From Natronoarchaeum mannanilyticum (GTDB lineage Archaea > Halobacteriota > Halobacteria > Halobacteriales > Natronoarchaeaceae), in NCBI RefSeq assembly GCF_039522665.1, contig NZ_BAAADV010000003.1, positions 62,001 to 126,000 of the forward strand: a DNA stretch of 64,000 nucleotides, read 5' to 3'. Of this stretch, positions 16,464 to 57,842 are shown one piece after another (position 1 is the first letter of the stretch; each line of letters begins with the position of its first letter). The notes under the pieces were generated by a model. It searched no databases. It was not told the DNA's origin and saw only the letters and a list, made by a program, of their open reading frames with translations. The position numbers and the translations under genes were made by a program.

Positions 16464-17120
16464 CTATCCGCGCATCTGTACGAATCGGACGCCGCCGTGA
16501 TCCTCGACGTCGAATTCGCCGTCGGATCGCTTGCGGTACCGCTGTAGCGTCTGACTGCGAGCGCCGATCGGCGCCAGCGCGACGCCGCCGTCGCGCAGCT
16601 GCTCGCCGACGGCGTCGGGGAACTCCCGGGCCGCGCAGGTTAGATACGCCGCGTCGTAGGGGGCGTGCTCTGGCCAGCCTTCGCGCCCGTCGCCGACGCG
16701 GACGGAGACGTCTTCGTAGCCGAGCTCTGCGAGCGTTTCGCGGGCTCGCTCCGCGAGTTCGGCGCTGTACTCGACGCTGTAGACGTGCTCGGAGCCGACG
16801 ACCTCGGCGGTCACCGCGGCGTGATACCCGCAGCCGGTGCCGACTTCGAGCACGTCGTCACCCGGCGCGGCGTCGAGCAGCTCGACCATGATGCCGACCA
16901 TGTGTGGCGCGCTGATCGTCTGGTCGTCGCCGATCGGCAGCGGGCGGTCGGCGTAGGCGTTCCCGCGGCGCCCCTCGGGGACGAACTCGTGGCGCGGTAC
17001 CGCGCGGAGGGCATCGAGCGTCGCCGGATCGGTGACCCGCCCGCTTTCCGCGAGCCGATCGACCATCCGGTCGCGTCGGCGCTCGAACGATTCGTCGGGG
17101 TTGTCGTCGGAGCCGAACAT
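16464..17120 (-). CDS. pcm: Protein-L-isoaspartate O-methyltransferase
   Basis: Repairs damaged proteins by methylating L-isoaspartyl residues with SAM. 218 aa from MFGSDDNPDES at 17120; an in-frame ATG at 17156 would add 12 basic residues. Family motifs are intact: ALRAVPRHEFVPEG, PLPIGDDQTISAPHMV (substrate signature), VLEVGTGCGYHAAVTAE (motif I) and RVGDGREGWPEHAPYDAAYLT. It is next to the divergent paralogue downstream, and the HVO_0476-type gene lies upstream in the same direction. Function is well supported. Confidence 0.9.
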   Translation of the reverse strand: MFGSDDNPDESFERRRDRMVDRLAESGRVTDPATLDALRAVPRHEFVPEGRRGNAYADRPLPIGDDQTISAPHMVGIMVELLDAAPGDDVLEVGTGCGYHAAVTAEVVGSEHVYSVEYSAELAERARETLAELGYEDVSVRVGDGREGWPEHAPYDAAYLTCAAREFPDAVGEQLRDGGVALAPIGARSQTLQRYRKRSDGEFDVEDHGGVRFVQMRG

Positions 17121-49203: not shown

Positions 49204-49724
49204 TTGGATACCTCCGCGTCGAAGGTCGACTCGACGTAGCGGACCGCGTCCTCGGGGTCGAGTCGGTGGTTCGAGGGGATCGAGCGGCTGGCCTTGTCGC
49301 GCTTGGCGACGCGGTAGCCGGGACGCACCAGGTTGACGGTGACGTCCAGCCCGAAGATCCCGATGCTCGGGTCGTACTCCTGGCTCGGGAAGTCGGTGTG
49401 CTCCTCGACCCCGAAGCTGAAGTTGCCGGTGTCGTCGAACTGCGAGGCCTGCAGGTCGGCCAGCGGCAGCGCGGTCTCCAGGAACTCGTGGGCGTCGTCG
49501 GCTCGAAGGGTGACCTTCGCGCCGATCGGGTCGCCCTGACGGATCCCGAAGTCCGGCTTCGTCGCTTTGGCGAGCGTTCGAACGCTCTCCTGGCCGGTGA
49601 CCTCCTCGATGATCTCCTCGGCGTTGGCGAGTTCGCGGCCGCCCTGACCGACGCCCATGTGGACGACGACCTTCTCGACGCGCGGCTCGCGCATCTCGTG
49701 GAACTCCGCTTCAGCTTCGCTCAT
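49200..49724 (-). CDS. rpl5: Ribosomal protein L5 (uL5)
   Basis: 174 aa. [32 protein letters not shown] is the L5 N-terminus; [15 protein letters not shown] and the tyrosine-containing C-terminal [14 protein letters not shown] the rest. Contacts 5S rRNA and P-site tRNA. Overlaps S4e and S14 by 4 bases. Confidence 0.96.
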
Positions 49725-50494
49725 TCGTCATCCTCCTCCGTTTCGTGGTCGGCGGCGTCCTCGGAGTCTGCCTCCGCGGAGCCGTCCTCAAGGCCGCCCT
49801 CGACGAAGTTCTCGTCGATCACGACGACGTACGGCTCGACGGTCTCGAAGTCGTCGCTGTCGGCGATGCCCTCGACGAGGACGCCGTTATCGCCGCTGCC
49901 GGGAGTGACCTGAATCTCCTCGATCCGGCCGATCTCGCCGGCGTGCTGGCCGCGAACGGCCGTGACGAGTTCGCCCTCCTCGTAGGGGAAGTGGGCGACG
50001 ACTTCGCTTGTCTCGTTGTCGACGACGACCGAGTCGCCGCCGCTGTACTGCTCTCCGTCCTCGACGAGCAGGTTCTGCCCGTCGTGGAGGTTGAGCTGGG
50101 TGTCCCCGCCGGGGACCTGCTGCAGGTCGTCGATCTTGCCGAGCTTGCTGCCCGCGGCGTCGGCGTCGATCTCGGTCAGCGCGAGCCGACCGCCCTCGTC
50201 GGGGAACACGCGGTAGTACTCCTCGCGCTGCGTGAACGCCAGGATGTCGAACATCCCGATCGGACGCGACTCGTCGGAGACGGCGTCGCCGTTGACGAGG
50301 ACCGCGTCGTTGTTCAGCGCGTAGCGCGCTTCCTTCTTCGAGTCGGCGTAGCCGAGCACGTCCCGCATCAGGACGACGAGGGGGACGCCCTCGCGCCCGT
50401 GGGGACCGGAACCGGCCTTCACGGTGAAGGTCTCGGTCTTGCGCTCGACCGGCCAGGAGTTCGGTGCTGAGAGTCGTTTCTGGTGTTTCGTCAT
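49721..50494 (-). CDS. rps4e: Ribosomal protein S4e (eS4)
   Basis: 257 aa. [29 protein letters not shown] is the start; an S4-like RNA-binding domain covers [28 protein letters not shown], then a KOW-like segment [15 protein letters not shown]. The last 35 residues are almost all acidic. Only in archaea and eukaryotes. Confidence 0.96.
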
Positions 50495-50847
50495 TCGCTA
50501 TCACCTCGGAGACGGGCCTCGCGCCGATCGTCCTCGAGGTCGAGGTCCGTGATGCGGAGATTGCTGGCGTCCAGCGGCCGCGGGACCTCCTCGCCGTCGG
50601 CCTTCTCGACGGTGACGTCCTCGACGTGGACGACGCCGTCCTTCAGGTCGACGGCGACGACCTCTTCTTCCTCTCCGGCGTGGTCACCGCGCATGACCTC
50701 GACCGTGTCGCCCGCGTTGACGCGGACGCGACGACGGTCGAACTCGTCGCGGAGCTCGTCGGAAAGGGTGGCGCGGACCTGCTTGTGTCGCTCGTGCAGG
50801 GGCGCGTCGTCCGTCTGATTTCGCTGTTTGCGTGGTTGTCGTGTCAT
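50491..50847 (-). CDS. rpl24: Ribosomal protein L24 (uL24)
   Basis: 118 aa. The KOW motif appears as [27 protein letters not shown]; the N-terminus [27 protein letters not shown] is the archaeal form. One of the first proteins to bind 23S rRNA. Its start lies one base past the L14 stop. Confidence 0.95.
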
Positions 50848-50848
50848 A

Positions 50849-51247
50849 CTATACGATCATCGTAGCGGTGCTTGCGATGCTTCCGAACCGCTCTGCGACC
50901 TCCCGCGCGATGGGACCCTTGATCTCGGTCCCGCGGGGCTCCTCGTTCTCGTCGATGACGACGGCAGCGTTGTCCTCGAATTTGAGGCGCGTGCCGTCGG
51001 GTCGACGGATCGACTTGCGCTGGCGGACGACCACGGCCTCGAGCACCTGGCGACGCATCTCGGGCGTCCCCTTGGTGACCGACACGGTGATCTTGTCGCC
51101 GATCCCCGCCTTCGGGTGGCGGTTCTTGGCGCCGGAGTAGCCGGCGACGCTGATGACCTTCAGCTCACGGGCGCCGGTGTTGTCGGCGCACGTGATCAGC
51201 GAGCCCTTCTCGAGGCCCTGGGTCACGTCGGCGTTCAGCGCTTCCAT
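50849..51247 (-). CDS. rpl14: Ribosomal protein L14 (uL14)
   Basis: 132 aa from [32 protein letters not shown] at 51247. The uL14 signature [34 protein letters not shown] is intact. Its start shares a base with the S17 stop (51247). Confidence 0.96.
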
Positions 51248-51594
51248 CAGTCGCCACCTCCCGCGGCGGCGTCCTCGTCGTCGACCTGCTCGACGACGAC
51301 GTGGCTCTTGGTCTTCGAGAGCGGTCGCGTCTCTGCGATGCGAACCGTGTCGCCGACCGAGAGGCCGAGACACTCCGGCGCGTGGGCCGGCACTCGGCTG
51401 CGTCGCTTCATCAGTCGATCGTACTTCGGCACGTTCACGTCGTACTCGCGTTCGACGATCACGGTCTTCGTCATGTCTGTGGAGGCCACCTCGCCCTCGA
51501 GCGTCTGGCCGCGCACGGATAGCGATCCGTGGAACGGGCAGTTCTCGTCGGAGCAGGTGGTCTCCGGCTCTGGTACGTTTAATCCGATTGCCAT
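51247..51594 (-). CDS. rps17: Ribosomal protein S17 (uS17)
   Basis: 115 aa. [39 protein letters not shown] gives the archaeal S17 N-terminus plus OB fold, with [23 protein letters not shown] at the end. The start lies within the 3' end of rnp1, an overlap of 16 bases. Confidence 0.95.
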
Positions 51595-52100
51595 GGTGAA
51601 TTCCCTCGTGTTTCGGTGCGTTCGGCGGGTCGTGAGAGCAGTCGCGAGCCATCCACCGTAACGTAGGTCACGCCATCGCCGGAGGGGACGTCGGCGTCGG
51701 TTTCCCGATCGCCGGCCGGTCGGCCGGCAAGCGCAGGTCCGTCCTGCGCGGTCGCCGTCTGCCCTGCCTCCAGTTCTGACGCGATCCCCGATCCCTTCTC
51801 GGGATCGGCGGCTTCATCTGTGGCGTGCCCGCTGGCACGGTCTTCGATCGCGAACTCGAATTTCGAGCCCTGCTTCGGCACCTGTCGCACCCGAGAGTCG
51901 CCGCTGTCCGCCGCTCGCGGGCTCGGCCCGCTCGCGTCGTTCGAGGCGCGTCGCGCCTCGCAGTCGAGATGGAGGGTGTTGGCCGTCTCGACGACGACCC
52001 GCCCCTCGATCCCGATCAGGTCGGCGTTCGGAGCCTCGACGACCCGCGCGTGCAGGCCGTTGAGCTCGTGTCGCGGCAGCGTCTCGGGTGTCAGTGGCAT
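51579..52100 (-). CDS. rnp1: RNase P protein component 1 (Rnp1/Rpp29) with two in-frame insertions
   Basis: 173 aa, against roughly 90-110 for simple haloarchaeal forms as I recall them. The core is intact: [69 protein letters not shown]. Between the core pieces lie insert A (residues about 49-69) and insert B (about 88-143), low-complexity and rich in A, G, D, S, E. The DNA of both inserts is full of perfect hairpins. The protein is needed for RNase P activity on tRNA precursors. Inserts fall in loops of the Rpp29 barrel, so function is probably kept. Confidence 0.93.
51711..51960. repeat. Cluster of six perfect hairpins inside rnp1 inserts
   Basis: Perfect stems (arm length/loop): 51711-51728 (8/2), 51731-51749 (7/5), 51788-51808 (8/5), 51824-51839 (6/4), 51917-51931 (6/3), 51942-51960 (8/3). 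All fall in the two extra protein segments of rnp1; the first four in insert B, the last two in insert A. Confidence 0.8.
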
Positions 52101-52101
52101 G

Positions 52102-52317
52102 TTATTCCTCGTCTTCGAGATCGCCTTCCTCGCGCTGGATCGTCTTGATCCGCGCGACGGCCTTGCGAAGCTCGCTGATGCGGCCCGGATCCTCCGGGGC
52201 GCCACCAGCGGCCTGTACGGCCTTCGCGTTGAGCAGCTCGGTCTCGAACTCCTCGAGTTCGGCCTCGCGCTCGGCGGGCGTCATGTCGCGGATCTCCTCG
52301 GGGTGAAGGATCGGCAT
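52102..52317 (-). CDS. rpl29: Ribosomal protein L29 (uL29)
   Basis: 71 aa. HPEEIRDMTPAEREAELEEFETELLNAKA forms the first helix pair and ISELRKAVARIKTIQREE the second; sits at the exit tunnel. One base separates it from rnp1, and its start overlaps the S3 stop. Confidence 0.95.
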   Translation of the reverse strand: MPILHPEEIRDMTPAEREAELEEFETELLNAKAVQAAGGAPEDPGRISELRKAVARIKTIQREEGDLEDEE

Positions 52318-53273
52318 CAGGCGTCACCTCCCTCTTCGGAGTCCTCGTCGTCGGCCGCTTCCTCGTCTTCCATCTCCTCCATCAGCTCGTCGGCCTCGGC
52401 CTCGACGTCCTCTTCGAGCTCGTCGAGCTCCTCGGCGATCTCCTCTTCCTCGTCGCCGGGGACCTCGACGTCCTCGAACTCCTCGTCGTCGGCTTCGGCG
52501 GCCTCCTCGACGACTTCCTCGTCGAGGACTTCTTCGGCCGAGTCGGCTTCTACGTCGGCCTCGCTGGCTTCGGCGGCGCCCTCTTCGAGCTCCTCGAGTT
52601 CTTCCTCGTCGGGCTCCTCGAGCAGCTCCTCGACGCCCTCGCCGGTCTCGACTTCCTCTTCGAGGGCGGACACGTCGGCGTCCTCCTCGATCTCGAAGTC
52701 GTCGGGCAGCTCGGCGCCCGGCGGGATGATCTTGACGTCCACGCCGATCGTCCCGAGCTTCATGACGGCGACGCCCTGGCCGTGGTCGACGATCGTCTCG
52801 GCGGGCTCGCCGTTGTGCTTGATGTAGCCGTCGTTGAACTTCTCGACGCGCGAGCGCGCGCCGGTGACCTTCCCGGAGAGGACGATCTCGGCGCCCAGCG
52901 CGCCGGCGTCCATGATGCGTTCGAGCGTGGTGTGGCCCGCCTTGCGGAAGTACCAGCCGCGCTCGAGTGCGTTCGCGAGTCGGTCGGCGACGATCCGGGC
53001 GTTCAGATCGGGTTCGTCGACCTCCTGAACGTCGATCTGGGGGTCCTCGAGGTTGAACTTCTCCTCGAGGGCCGTCGTGATCTTCCGGATGTTCTCGCCG
53101 CCCTTGCCGATCACCATACCGGGCTTCTCGGCTTTCAGGACGATCTGGGTGCCCATCGGCGTCTTGGCGACGTCCATGCCGCCGTAGCCGGCGCGACCCA
53201 GTTCGTCGGCGAAGAACTCGTCGATCTGGGACTTCTGCATCCCGTCCTCGATGAACTGGTGTTCGTCTGCCAT
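52317..53273 (-). CDS. rps3: Ribosomal protein S3 (uS3) with long acidic tail
   Basis: 318 aa. KH domain [27 protein letters not shown] and the C-terminal S3 domain [41 protein letters not shown] are intact. From about residue 195 the tail is nearly all Glu/Asp/Ala, over 110 residues, a haloarchaeal feature that probably stays outside the rRNA core. Overlaps L22 and L29 by one base. Confidence 0.95.
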
Positions 53274-53734
53274 TATTCGTCAGCCTCCTTGAGGATGAGT
53301 TCGACGTCCACTTCGATCGTGTTCCAGGCCGTCGCTCGGCCCATCGCGCGGGGCTTGCGGCCCTGCACCTCGCCGACCTTGTGGGCGGCGACGTGCTCGA
53401 TGATCATCTCCTCGCCGTCGAACCCCTGGTGGTCGGCGTTGTTGACGGCGTTCTCGATCAGGTCGAGGAACTCGCCGCTGGCCTTCTCGGGGTAGCGACC
53501 GGCGTCCCAGCCGTCGACGCCGGACTTGTGGCCGACGCCGCTGTTGTGCTGGCGGAACGGGACGGGCTGTTCCTCGGCGATGACCGCTTCGAGGTACTCG
53601 GTGGCCTCGGCGGCGGTCTTGCCCTTGATCTCCCGGGCGATCGCCTTGCTGTGCTTGTGGCTCATGTGACGCTCCCGGAGCATGGCTTTCGCCGTCGAAT
53701 CCGGGTCCACGTCGACGCTGTAGTTGATTCCCAT
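53273..53734 (-). CDS. rpl22: Ribosomal protein L22 (uL22)
   Basis: 153 aa. [37 protein letters not shown] is the archaeal L22 N-terminus; [24 protein letters not shown] carries the tunnel loop. Located between S19 and S3, 3 bases from S19. Confidence 0.96.
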
Positions 53735-56921: not shown

Positions 56922-57842
56922 TCACTCTGGTAGTGTCAGGCTGGCGAGTGAGGCGAACATCGCTTCTTCAGTTCGCACGACCTCGCTGCCCTGGTTCGGG
57001 ACCGTGTTCAGCCAGAGGTCGAACCGGTTGGGTGCGCCCGATTCGACTGTGATCCGCGACGAGCCGTCCTCGTCGCTCGATTCGCGTTCGGCGGGGACGT
57101 CGTCCCCGCCCTCTCGTTGCCCCTCCGGGGCAACGCCGTCGACGGTGATACCGTCGAGCATCGCCGGAAGCCCTCTCTCGGGCGCGCCGAAGGCGACGGT
57201 CGTTCCGTCCGCCCTGACGCGTCCGGCCAGCGATCCGAGCCGCGACGTGGTGAGATTCTCGCCGAATCTCGACGTCGCGATCCGGACGCCGGCGTCCTCA
57301 CGGCCGAGCGCTTCCGATAGGTCCGCGCGGTCGACCGAGAACCCCGGAAGGGGTGCCTCGACCAGCTTCGCACGGACCGGCTCTCGCGAAGAGATCCTGA
57401 CTGTTACGCGCTCTCCCTCGGTCACCTCCATTCCCGGAGGGACGCCGAGCGAGATCGGGTGTTGCATTCCGCAATTGACCCGTACGCGCCCGTCAGGTCC
57501 GACCTCGGTCACGATTCCCTGTCTTGTCGACCCCGGACCGTCTGATCCGGAGCCGGTCTGCGACGAGGCGAGCAGCGGCGGCAGGATGCCGGCGTACTCC
57601 AGTTCGTCCCGACGCCCCCAAGCCTCCTTTCGGAGGTAGGGCGGCGTCGCGGCGTACCGCAACACCGTTTCGACGAACCCGCCGCCCCACCTGCGCTCGC
57701 CTTCCCCGTCGGGGAAGACGGTCAGGCGATCCGCCCGGAACACCGTCGCCGCGCGGGCGACGTAACCGATCTTGCGCGTCGCCTCGCGCTTGTCTTCGGC
57801 TTCCCGGACGAGGGACGACGGCACGAGCAGGCTGACTGTCAT
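56922..57842 (-). CDS. SPOUT-family RNA methyltransferase, first gene of the ribosomal operon
   Basis: 306 aa from MTVSLLVPSSLVREAEDKREATRKIG at 57842; the frame stays open upstream but that part has no family features. Belongs to the family of putative RNA uridine N3-methyltransferases found beside archaeal L3. Conserved: ADRLTVFPDGEGERRWGGGFVETVLRYAATPPYLRKEAW and FDLWLNTVPNQGSEVVRTEEAM. Residues about 228-262 are extra, low-complexity, and carry three perfect hairpins in the DNA. A TATA-like element lies about 57-66 bases upstream. Confidence 0.87.
   Translation of the reverse strand: MTVSLLVPSSLVREAEDKREATRKIGYVARAATVFRADRLTVFPDGEGERRWGGGFVETVLRYAATPPYLRKEAWGRRDELEYAGILPPLLASSQTGSGSDGPGSTRQGIVTEVGPDGRVRVNCGMQHPISLGVPPGMEVTEGERVTVRISSREPVRAKLVEAPLPGFSVDRADLSEALGREDAGVRIATSRFGENLTTSRLGSLAGRVRADGTTVAFGAPERGLPAMLDGITVDGVAPEGQREGGDDVPAERESSDEDGSSRITVESGAPNRFDLWLNTVPNQGSEVVRTEEAMFASLASLTLPE
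57091..57156. repeat. Three adjacent perfect hairpins inside the SPOUT gene
   Basis: GCGGGGAC/GTCCCCGC (57091-57109, loop 3), GTTGCCCC/GGGGCAAC (57116-57134, loop 3), CGACGGT/ACCGTCG (57140-57156, loop 3). All fall in the extra segment of the protein. Further hairpins at 57252-57270 (7/5), nested within CGCGACG...CGTCGCG (57241-57279), at 57701-57717 (7/3) and 57744-57762 (7/5), lie in conserved parts. Confidence 0.75.

Follow-up and report, generated by a model that had tools for sequence, protein, structure and literature searches.

A conserved structured RNA element translated within the haloarchaeal gene rnp1, possibly acting as an internal leader for rps17

The element of interest lies inside rnp1, a gene for a ribonuclease P (RNase P) protein, on the minus strand of a 64,000-nucleotide (nt) stretch of Natronoarchaeum mannanilyticum DNA (contig NZ_BAAADV010000003.1, positions 62,001–126,000; the whole stretch is hereafter called the window, and all coordinates are window positions). 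The Rnp1 core is interrupted here by two in-frame, hairpin-rich segments, insert A and insert B. Two helices of insert B, P1 and P2, are kept by compensatory changes across haloarchaeal families, and insert B is best explained as the protein-coding readout of a conserved structured mRNA element. Located at the junction of rnp1 and rps17, this element may act as an internal, translated leader; we lean slightly towards this function.

Helices P1 and P2 are kept by compensatory changes

The gene and the parts of the element concerned are as follows.
51579..52100, minus strand: rnp1 (Rpp29/Pop4 family RNase P protein), coding sequence and stop codon, from PF01868 and the translation
51788..51808, minus strand: hairpin P1, 8 base pairs (bp) with the 5-nt loop GAGAA, from covariation and covariance model R1
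51777..51787, minus strand: 5' strand of the long-range helix P2, top covarying helix in the gene scan
51666..51675, minus strand: 3' strand of P2, on the same evidence
51676..51776, minus strand: variable domain enclosed by P2, with hairpins 51749-51731 and 51728-51711 and a length in multiples of three

The gene rnp1 was found in 381 genomes; from the part of these listed with places, 60 regions were fetched, mostly with long spans; this sample therefore favours insert-bearing genes. The extraction pattern missed 10 of 99 rnp1 loci, which were left out of the block, codon, RNAalifold and helix-scan analyses, and a peptide pattern classed 23 of 89 loci as lacking the element. One locus (L079) was dropped from the element references, and 45 of 65 elements (those of at most 175 nt) were used for a 45-sequence alignment and for model R1. 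A DNA scan with a single protein (P0001) gave no match. Two further sets were aligned to R1, which favours that model: 20 divergent sequences from outside it, picked among R1 matches, and 80 named loci (77 distinct). The named loci were retrieved through protein, not RNA, similarity; the query was built from proteins that carry the element, and these are the best 80 of its 151 hits. Many of the 80 belong to species that are also in the 45-sequence alignment.

In the 45 sequences, 96.7% of cells are paired when the short putative helix P0 (see below) is included, as compared with 83.1 ± 0.7 in shuffles and 36–46% for slid structures. Two-sided changes are seen in 15 of 21 pairs (8.9 ± 1.2 in shuffles), namely in all eight pairs of P1 and seven of the ten of P2, and the covariation score is 0.437 versus 0.180 in shuffles. 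The 20 divergent sequences are 93.0% paired (shuffles 86.2 ± 0.9), with two-sided changes in 8 of 18 pairs, a count reached by 2 of 500 shuffles, and the 80 named loci are 98.3% paired (shuffles 90.4 ± 0.4), with two-sided changes in 10 of 18 pairs. The shuffles leave relatedness in, and the statistics ignore kinship. Covariation exceeds the shuffled and slid controls in the three sequence sets, as expected of a conserved structured RNA.

Both helices also emerge when they are not specified in advance. RNAalifold, applied to the codon alignment, finds P1 and P2 unaided, with weaker helices besides, and in a gene-wide helix scan the top place goes to P2 and the next to P1, represented by five of its pairs. 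Folding the window element as a single sequence forms P1 and 8 bp of P2; the ends of this 8-bp part are U-A and A-U in the window, where C-G is commonest. The tail of the element offers weak candidates only for extra covarying helices. Rfam 15 gives no match at gathering score in five loci, and a search of window positions 50500-53500 returns two sub-gathering hits (E 0.48 and 4), both on the plus strand and outside the element. We also considered whether the element imitates a known RNA. Mimicry of RNase P RNA was rejected, given scattered shared 7–8-mers only, and mimicry of 23S ribosomal RNA (rRNA) domain I was not borne out by ungapped matching; the same matching reveals no convincing same-sense resemblance to 23S, and the conserved strings share at most 9 nt with rRNA. 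Large-subunit rRNA was not found in the window's own assembly (G000).

The element is read as protein

The Rnp1 core of relatives is split at the same point, by inserts that differ in length. Little or no sequence stands at the insert B position in the rnp1 genes inspected from one family (f4), and two genes of another (f6; L054 and L094) carry a linker there in which no stem was found. Across insert B and the codons that follow, a series of DNA blocks recurs: CACAGATGAAGCCG comes first, followed by an 8-bp hairpin whose sequence changes, by GGGGACCGCGTCCAAACT and then, beyond a variable stretch, by GGCGAGGGCGTGGCCTACGTTACGGTGGATGG and CTGCTCTCACGACCCGC.

Outside the helices, rare codons are fixed. 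Among those of 66 genes that have the residue in question, and with seven window genes of the operon as the background, GTT is used in 100% (background 3% of Val codons), GAT in 100% at two sites (5%), TCA in 100% (2%) and ACA in 97% (5%). The GTT belongs to a conserved junction segment, where it is present in 66 of 66:
51659..51665, minus strand: conserved junction UACGUUA between P2 and the next conserved strand, from GTT conservation

In all 80 named loci the element falls in the same length class modulo 3 and contains no in-frame stop, over lengths of 121 to 274 nt; this is no measure of frequency, because both query and selection favoured element-bearing proteins. The kept frame and the lack of stops speak for an RNA that doubles as protein-coding sequence rather than for an intron. 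Within the variable domain, the hairpin arms are kept in a congener (L002).

The conserved flanks carry a kink-turn signature

Two conserved strands flank P1 and P2.
51809..51822, minus strand: conserved CACAGATGAAGCCG, proposed bulged kink-turn strand (CA, GAU bulge, GA, A, then GCCG), from the signature and the rare codons ACA, GAT and GAA
51649..51658, minus strand: conserved CGGTGGATGG, proposed P0 strand CGG(U) and non-bulged kink-turn strand (G/C)GA, from invariance

These flanks can pair as NCCG/CGGU, after which CA-GAU-GA-A stands opposite (G/C)-GA-UG, the standard layout of a kink-turn. At the level of the signature, L3 is U, 1b.1n is G.A and 2b.2n is A.G in 65 of 65 elements and in all 80 named loci, as in a standard kink-turn; L1 varies among the 65 (G 62, A 2, U 1). 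Of the flanking pairs, −1 is A-U in 64 of the 65 elements and in all 80 named loci, and −2 is C-G throughout; CGGTGGATGG is invariant in 65 sequences save at the 3n position. From this signature we predict that the flanks pair as P0 and form a kink-turn, giving a three-way junction P0/P1/P2 just before the rps17 start.

According to PMC6298567, a kink-turn with C at 3b or G at 3n can fold with ions, and a GAU bulge also occurs in the kink-turns of archaeal l7ae leaders. In the rnp1 element, 3b.3n is A.G or C.C, combinations that this rule covers, in 61 of 65 sequences and 68 of 80 loci.

A conserved segment is complementary to 16S helix 11

The last conserved segment before rps17 is the following.
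51626..51640, minus strand: conserved TGCTCTCACGACCCG, complementary to CGGGUUGUGAGAGCA of 16S rRNA helix 11 (14 Watson-Crick pairs and one G.U)

The 15 pairs are consecutive, TGCTCTCACGACCCG ends 31 nt ahead of the rps17 start, and the 16S reference is that of a genome of the same family (G007). Random 20-mers from the genome reach the pairing score in 12 of 20,000 trials against 16S plus 23S and in 9 of 20,000 against 16S; with a 50-nt helix-11 window as the target, 0 of 60,000 do so. These figures need raising several-fold, because the match had been noticed before it was tested, on six strings of which two overlap. Among genes with the element, 69 of 85 attain the score; among 23 without it, none does (best 10.0). 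Full 15-nt pairing with the G007 helix 11, G.U allowed, is found in 74 of the 80 named loci, seven of which have an A that turns the G.U into A-U. No conserved intramolecular partner for TGCTCTCACGACCCG was seen; among the sequences scanned, 15 have 8-nt partners and 5 have 7-nt partners.

With the standard form in 25 of the 28 genomes printed, helix 11 is too constant to reveal covariation with the segment. Genomes in which it differs (G086, G012 and G105) show lost or reduced complementarity and are uninformative. All eight genus g7 genomes in the comparison have lost the complementary segment, as has one further locus (L132). S17 contacts helix 11 in Escherichia coli and Thermus thermophilus (PMC3359968), and we regard the complementarity as a lead.

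The element is widespread in, and confined in our searches to, one order

Of 392 genomes searched in the order, 264 contain a match to model R1, a less biased frequency than the 60-region sample can give; the matches extend over 10 of 17 haloarchaeal families. The listed matches number one per genome, save for one genome with two (G123), and none is in family f4. All 40 of the 264 places that were compared fall within the rnp1 match. In a sample of the phylum, 43 of 294 genomes are matched, all 43 belonging to this order; both the order and the phylum search used strict filters, with which weak matches may be lost. Named carriers include Natrinema, Natrialba, Natronorubrum, Halorussus, Halobellus, Halogeometricum and nine Haloferax species. 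Natronorubrum bangense (L159) has a second element-bearing rnp1 on a plasmid record, besides the chromosomal gene.

The first-pass annotation described two inserts in rnp1. When indels are compared across haloarchaea they part company: insert B has the wide distribution given above, and insert A is missing even from congener L002.

Genomic setting, and hairpins outside the conserved element

The rnp1 gene is 173 codons plus stop long (52100..51579), and its product matches Pfam PF01868 at 66.4 bits (cut-off 27, E 3.5e-18), which places it in the Rpp29/Pop4 family; relatives in PDB are 6k0a_E and 1oqk_A. It is flanked by the genes of ribosomal proteins L29 and S17, and its end overlaps the start codon (51594) of the latter:
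51247..51594, minus strand: rps17 (uS17), PF00366 Ribosomal_S17, E 3.6e-26

At the start of rnp1 (52100-52060) the rare codons GCA, ACA, CGA and GAA are conserved, partly in genes without the element too; perhaps they are linked to translation start. In locus L009 (genome G005), rnp1 continues directly into an apparent rpl6 after an insert A with an 8-bp hairpin, skipping the intervening genes, which is probably an assembly join in a draft genome.

Hairpins were what first drew attention to the inserts, for which six perfect stems had been claimed. A script that counts non-overlapping perfect stems (arm of at least 6, loop of 1–5) recovers all six, with arm bp/loop nt of 6/3 at 51931-51917, 6/4 at 51839-51824, 8/5 at 51808-51788, 7/5 at 51749-51731, 8/2 at 51728-51711 and 9/1 at 51960-51942 (the last given earlier as 8 bp with a loop of 3), and adds a seventh, 6/1 at 51867-51855, in the conserved core. 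No 289-nt stretch exceeds these seven stems anywhere in the 285,690 nt sampled from the genome (the window and 12 stretches, 11 of them of 20 kb), in which the mean is 0.93 per 289 nt. Synonymous-codon shuffles of rnp1 yield 1.91 ± 1.29 stems, with seven reached in 0 of 200.

The observation of hairpins packed into the inserts is thereby confirmed, with the qualification that stems are in excess outside them too. With three loci skipped (L037, L080 and L108), the inserts of 65 element-bearing rnp1 genes hold 99 stems against 23.3 ± 5.1 after codon shuffling; the cores of the same genes, however, hold 125 against 36.1 ± 6.2, and 21 genes without the element hold 35 core stems against 15.4 ± 4.1. 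Because the excess is not confined to the inserts, stem counting is weak evidence and covariation the decisive test. Stem counts were consequently dropped as chief evidence, since cores with and without the element also exceed codon shuffles. Elsewhere, the next densest cluster of the window (57011-57340) has six stems in 289 nt, as does a sampled stretch (L047) near its position 16821, and rps4e (49721-50494) has seven stems where codon shuffles give 3.28 ± 1.32 and 2 of 200 reach seven.

Several of these stems lie outside the conserved RNA.
51894..51960, minus strand: insert A, with two perfect hairpins (51960-51942 and 51931-51917), outside the conserved RNA, from the script
51824..51839, minus strand: peripheral hairpin CGTGCCAGCGGGCACG just 5' of the conserved element, from the script

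Hairpins outside P1 and P2 are lineage-specific, those of insert A included: lineages differ in the perfect hairpins that they carry at the 5' edge, at insert A and within the variable domain. The hairpin core GTGCCAGCGGGCAC occurs in 3 of 114 loci (L001, L006 and L105), all within rnp1; these 14-nt copies belong to different genera and families and occupy different places of the insert. The peripheral hairpins resemble expansion segments of RNA, for which an unconstrained protein loop may leave room. They may have originated by template switching, a process described as producing perfect stems as well as compensatory changes of several bases at once (PMC8794818).

Proposed function and alternative explanations

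The suggestion that RNA structures within rnp1 regulate the operon internally has stood up well as regards structure; regulation is suggested by position. We read the element as an internal leader because of its position just before rps17, its fold and its conservation in cis. Under this reading, the junction would fold while rnp1 is untranslated, and a kink-turn protein would bind the folded junction through the kink-turn. The first candidate is L7Ae. The 16S kink-turn Kt-11 is bound by S17, and a ribosomal protein encoded downstream, such as uS17 or uL24, would be the second candidate. Once bound, the junction would set the translation or stability of rps17 and the following genes, while a ribosome translating rnp1 would unfold it, so that rnp1 and rps17 would be coupled. 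The 15-nt segment that can pair with helix 11 may link the switch to free 16S rRNA. The other hairpins would be peripheral, lineage-specific additions, tolerated because the protein loop is free to vary. Published observations on the candidates are that L7Ae is an RNase P subunit (PMC4919917), that L7Ae-bound kink-turns within coding sequences were proposed from RNA immunoprecipitation sequencing (RIP-Seq) in Sulfolobus (PMC5539422), and that L24 binds Kt-7 of 23S rRNA (PMC5061560).

Several observations weigh against the leader reading. The three P0 pairs are 100% paired in the 45 sequences, but two of them never vary and the third varies one-sidedly; P0 is formed neither by RNAalifold nor by the single-sequence fold of the window element, which pairs the CC of P0 with a GG beside P1 instead. 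The kink-turn thus rests on its signature, not on covariation, as P0 and the C-helix hardly vary and folding programs miss P0, and because the programs do not form P0 our confidence in the leader was lowered slightly. The C-helix has two canonical pairs only; the −1 pair, A-U here, is C-G in most natural kink-turns (PMC6298567); 3b.3n is A.C, to which the ion-folding rule does not extend, in 4 of 65 and 12 of 80; and the C.C form is confined to one family (f7) among the 65 rows. In genus g7 (8 of 8 genomes examined, in a comparison for which the extraction pattern gave no protein at L131), P1 and P2 are kept, but both the UACGUUA junction and the segment complementary to 16S have changed. With no listed match in family f4, haloarchaea can evidently do without the element, and the protein ligand is a guess, since the operon encodes many RNA-binding proteins.

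A more specific version joins the two halves of the evidence: the 3' end of the kink-turn three-way junction would pair with helix 11, so that unassembled 16S, alone or with L7Ae or uS17, would control uS17 and the following ribosomal proteins. We think this version unlikely; if true, an rRNA-sensing translated leader would tie tRNA processing to ribosome assembly. Slightly less unlikely is the neighbouring possibility that the element is an rRNA sensor, in which the pairing with unassembled 16S, and not a protein, opens or closes the switch or carries the mRNA to the rRNA and so places S17 synthesis beside its binding site. The 15 consecutive pairs, the frequency with which element-bearing genes reach the score and the contact of S17 with helix 11 (PMC3359968) speak for it. 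On the other side are the need to raise the chance figures several-fold, a near-invariant helix 11 that denies a covariation test, and the likelihood that helix 11 is buried in the mature 30S subunit; moreover, the segment is lost throughout the genus g7 genomes and in L132, though standard helix 11 is kept in three of the four g7 genomes checked. A kink-turn signature closing a structured domain, together with a 16S antisense, also recalls L7Ae-bound guide RNAs, and the element might be an intragenic small RNA (sRNA) cut from rnp1 mRNA that acts in trans, with the kink-turn as its protein-binding end. This is quite unlikely: no D box (CUGA) follows the antisense segment in the sequences printed, as judged by eye, the places compared all lie inside rnp1, only G123 has two matches, and the reading frame is kept in every named locus.

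The remaining alternatives dispense with a functional RNA. The hairpins could have been made and kept perfect by mutation, through template switching or slipped-strand growth, without function. Insert A and the variable domain do carry perfect hairpins peculiar to particular lineages, which fits this, as do the products of template switching described above (PMC8794818), and hairpin growth, put forward in the first-pass annotation, may account for the peripheral hairpins. For the conserved core it is disfavoured: such a process gives neighbouring hairpins, not a covarying helix whose strands flank the whole variable domain, and it neither fixes rare codons outside helices nor retains the element in so many genomes of the order. 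As an account of the whole we consider it very improbable. A conserved, functional loop of Rnp1 is less probable still; a loosely conserved peptide (TDEAA...GTASKL) is visible, yet P1 encodes differing peptides while keeping its pairs, and the conserved letters outside helices include third positions with rare codons. To an intron removed from the mRNA, finally, we give next to no credence. The interruption of the Rnp1 core and the lack of the insert in relatives such as family f4 would fit, but the frame is kept without a stop in 80 of 80 named loci, at element lengths of 121 to 274 nt.

Few cis-regulatory RNAs are known in archaea, and this one is embedded in frame in a protein gene. It shows an RNA that changes length in three-nucleotide steps and gains hairpins while being translated. 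The nine Haloferax carriers, which come from another collection than the 392 genomes, place it in the genus of a main genetic model, and the leader reading predicts that synonymous changes in rnp1 should alter rps17 and the following genes.

Relation to known systems

Rickettsia palindromic elements are in-frame, hairpin-rich DNA within protein genes, a description that also suits insert B and had led to the proposal of a similar element here. The proposal is not supported. A search of the genome with the 301-nt insert region gave a single full copy and, besides it, one 39-nt match of 82% identity; across families the insert keeps to one place, where relatives have the same RNA spelt in other letters that covary.

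Archaeal box C/D sRNAs share a kink-turn signature and an rRNA antisense with the element. They differ in their D box, which by eye does not follow the antisense here; the rnp1 element also has a structured interior, and none was seen apart from rnp1 among the places compared. Also comparable are the archaeal mRNA kink-turns bound by L7Ae, which have likewise been proposed within coding sequences, in Sulfolobus (PMC5539422); unlike these, the rnp1 kink-turn would close a junction with two covarying helices. It would differ from the l7ae leaders in that most of its 3b.3n pairs predict folding with ions alone (PMC6298567).

In the excerpted texts of PMC7247131, PMC2864571, PMC5539422, PMC10134880, PMC4919917 and PMC8672879 there is no mention of the element (subscription journals and supplements lie outside this search); it is not among the 20 motifs in Table 1 of PMC7247131, whose text contains neither 'rnp1' nor 'RNase P'. 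In 2020, four new archaeal leaders were called a significant increase (PMC7247131). With such ribosomal leaders, including the S15 leader of Halobacteria of Eckert and Weinberg (PMC7247131), the element agrees in kind: a covarying, lineage-limited cis-RNA that is a candidate for binding a ribosomal protein, close upstream (here 31 nt) of the start codon of a ribosomal-protein gene. It departs from them in lying within the coding sequence of the preceding gene, and in being translated.
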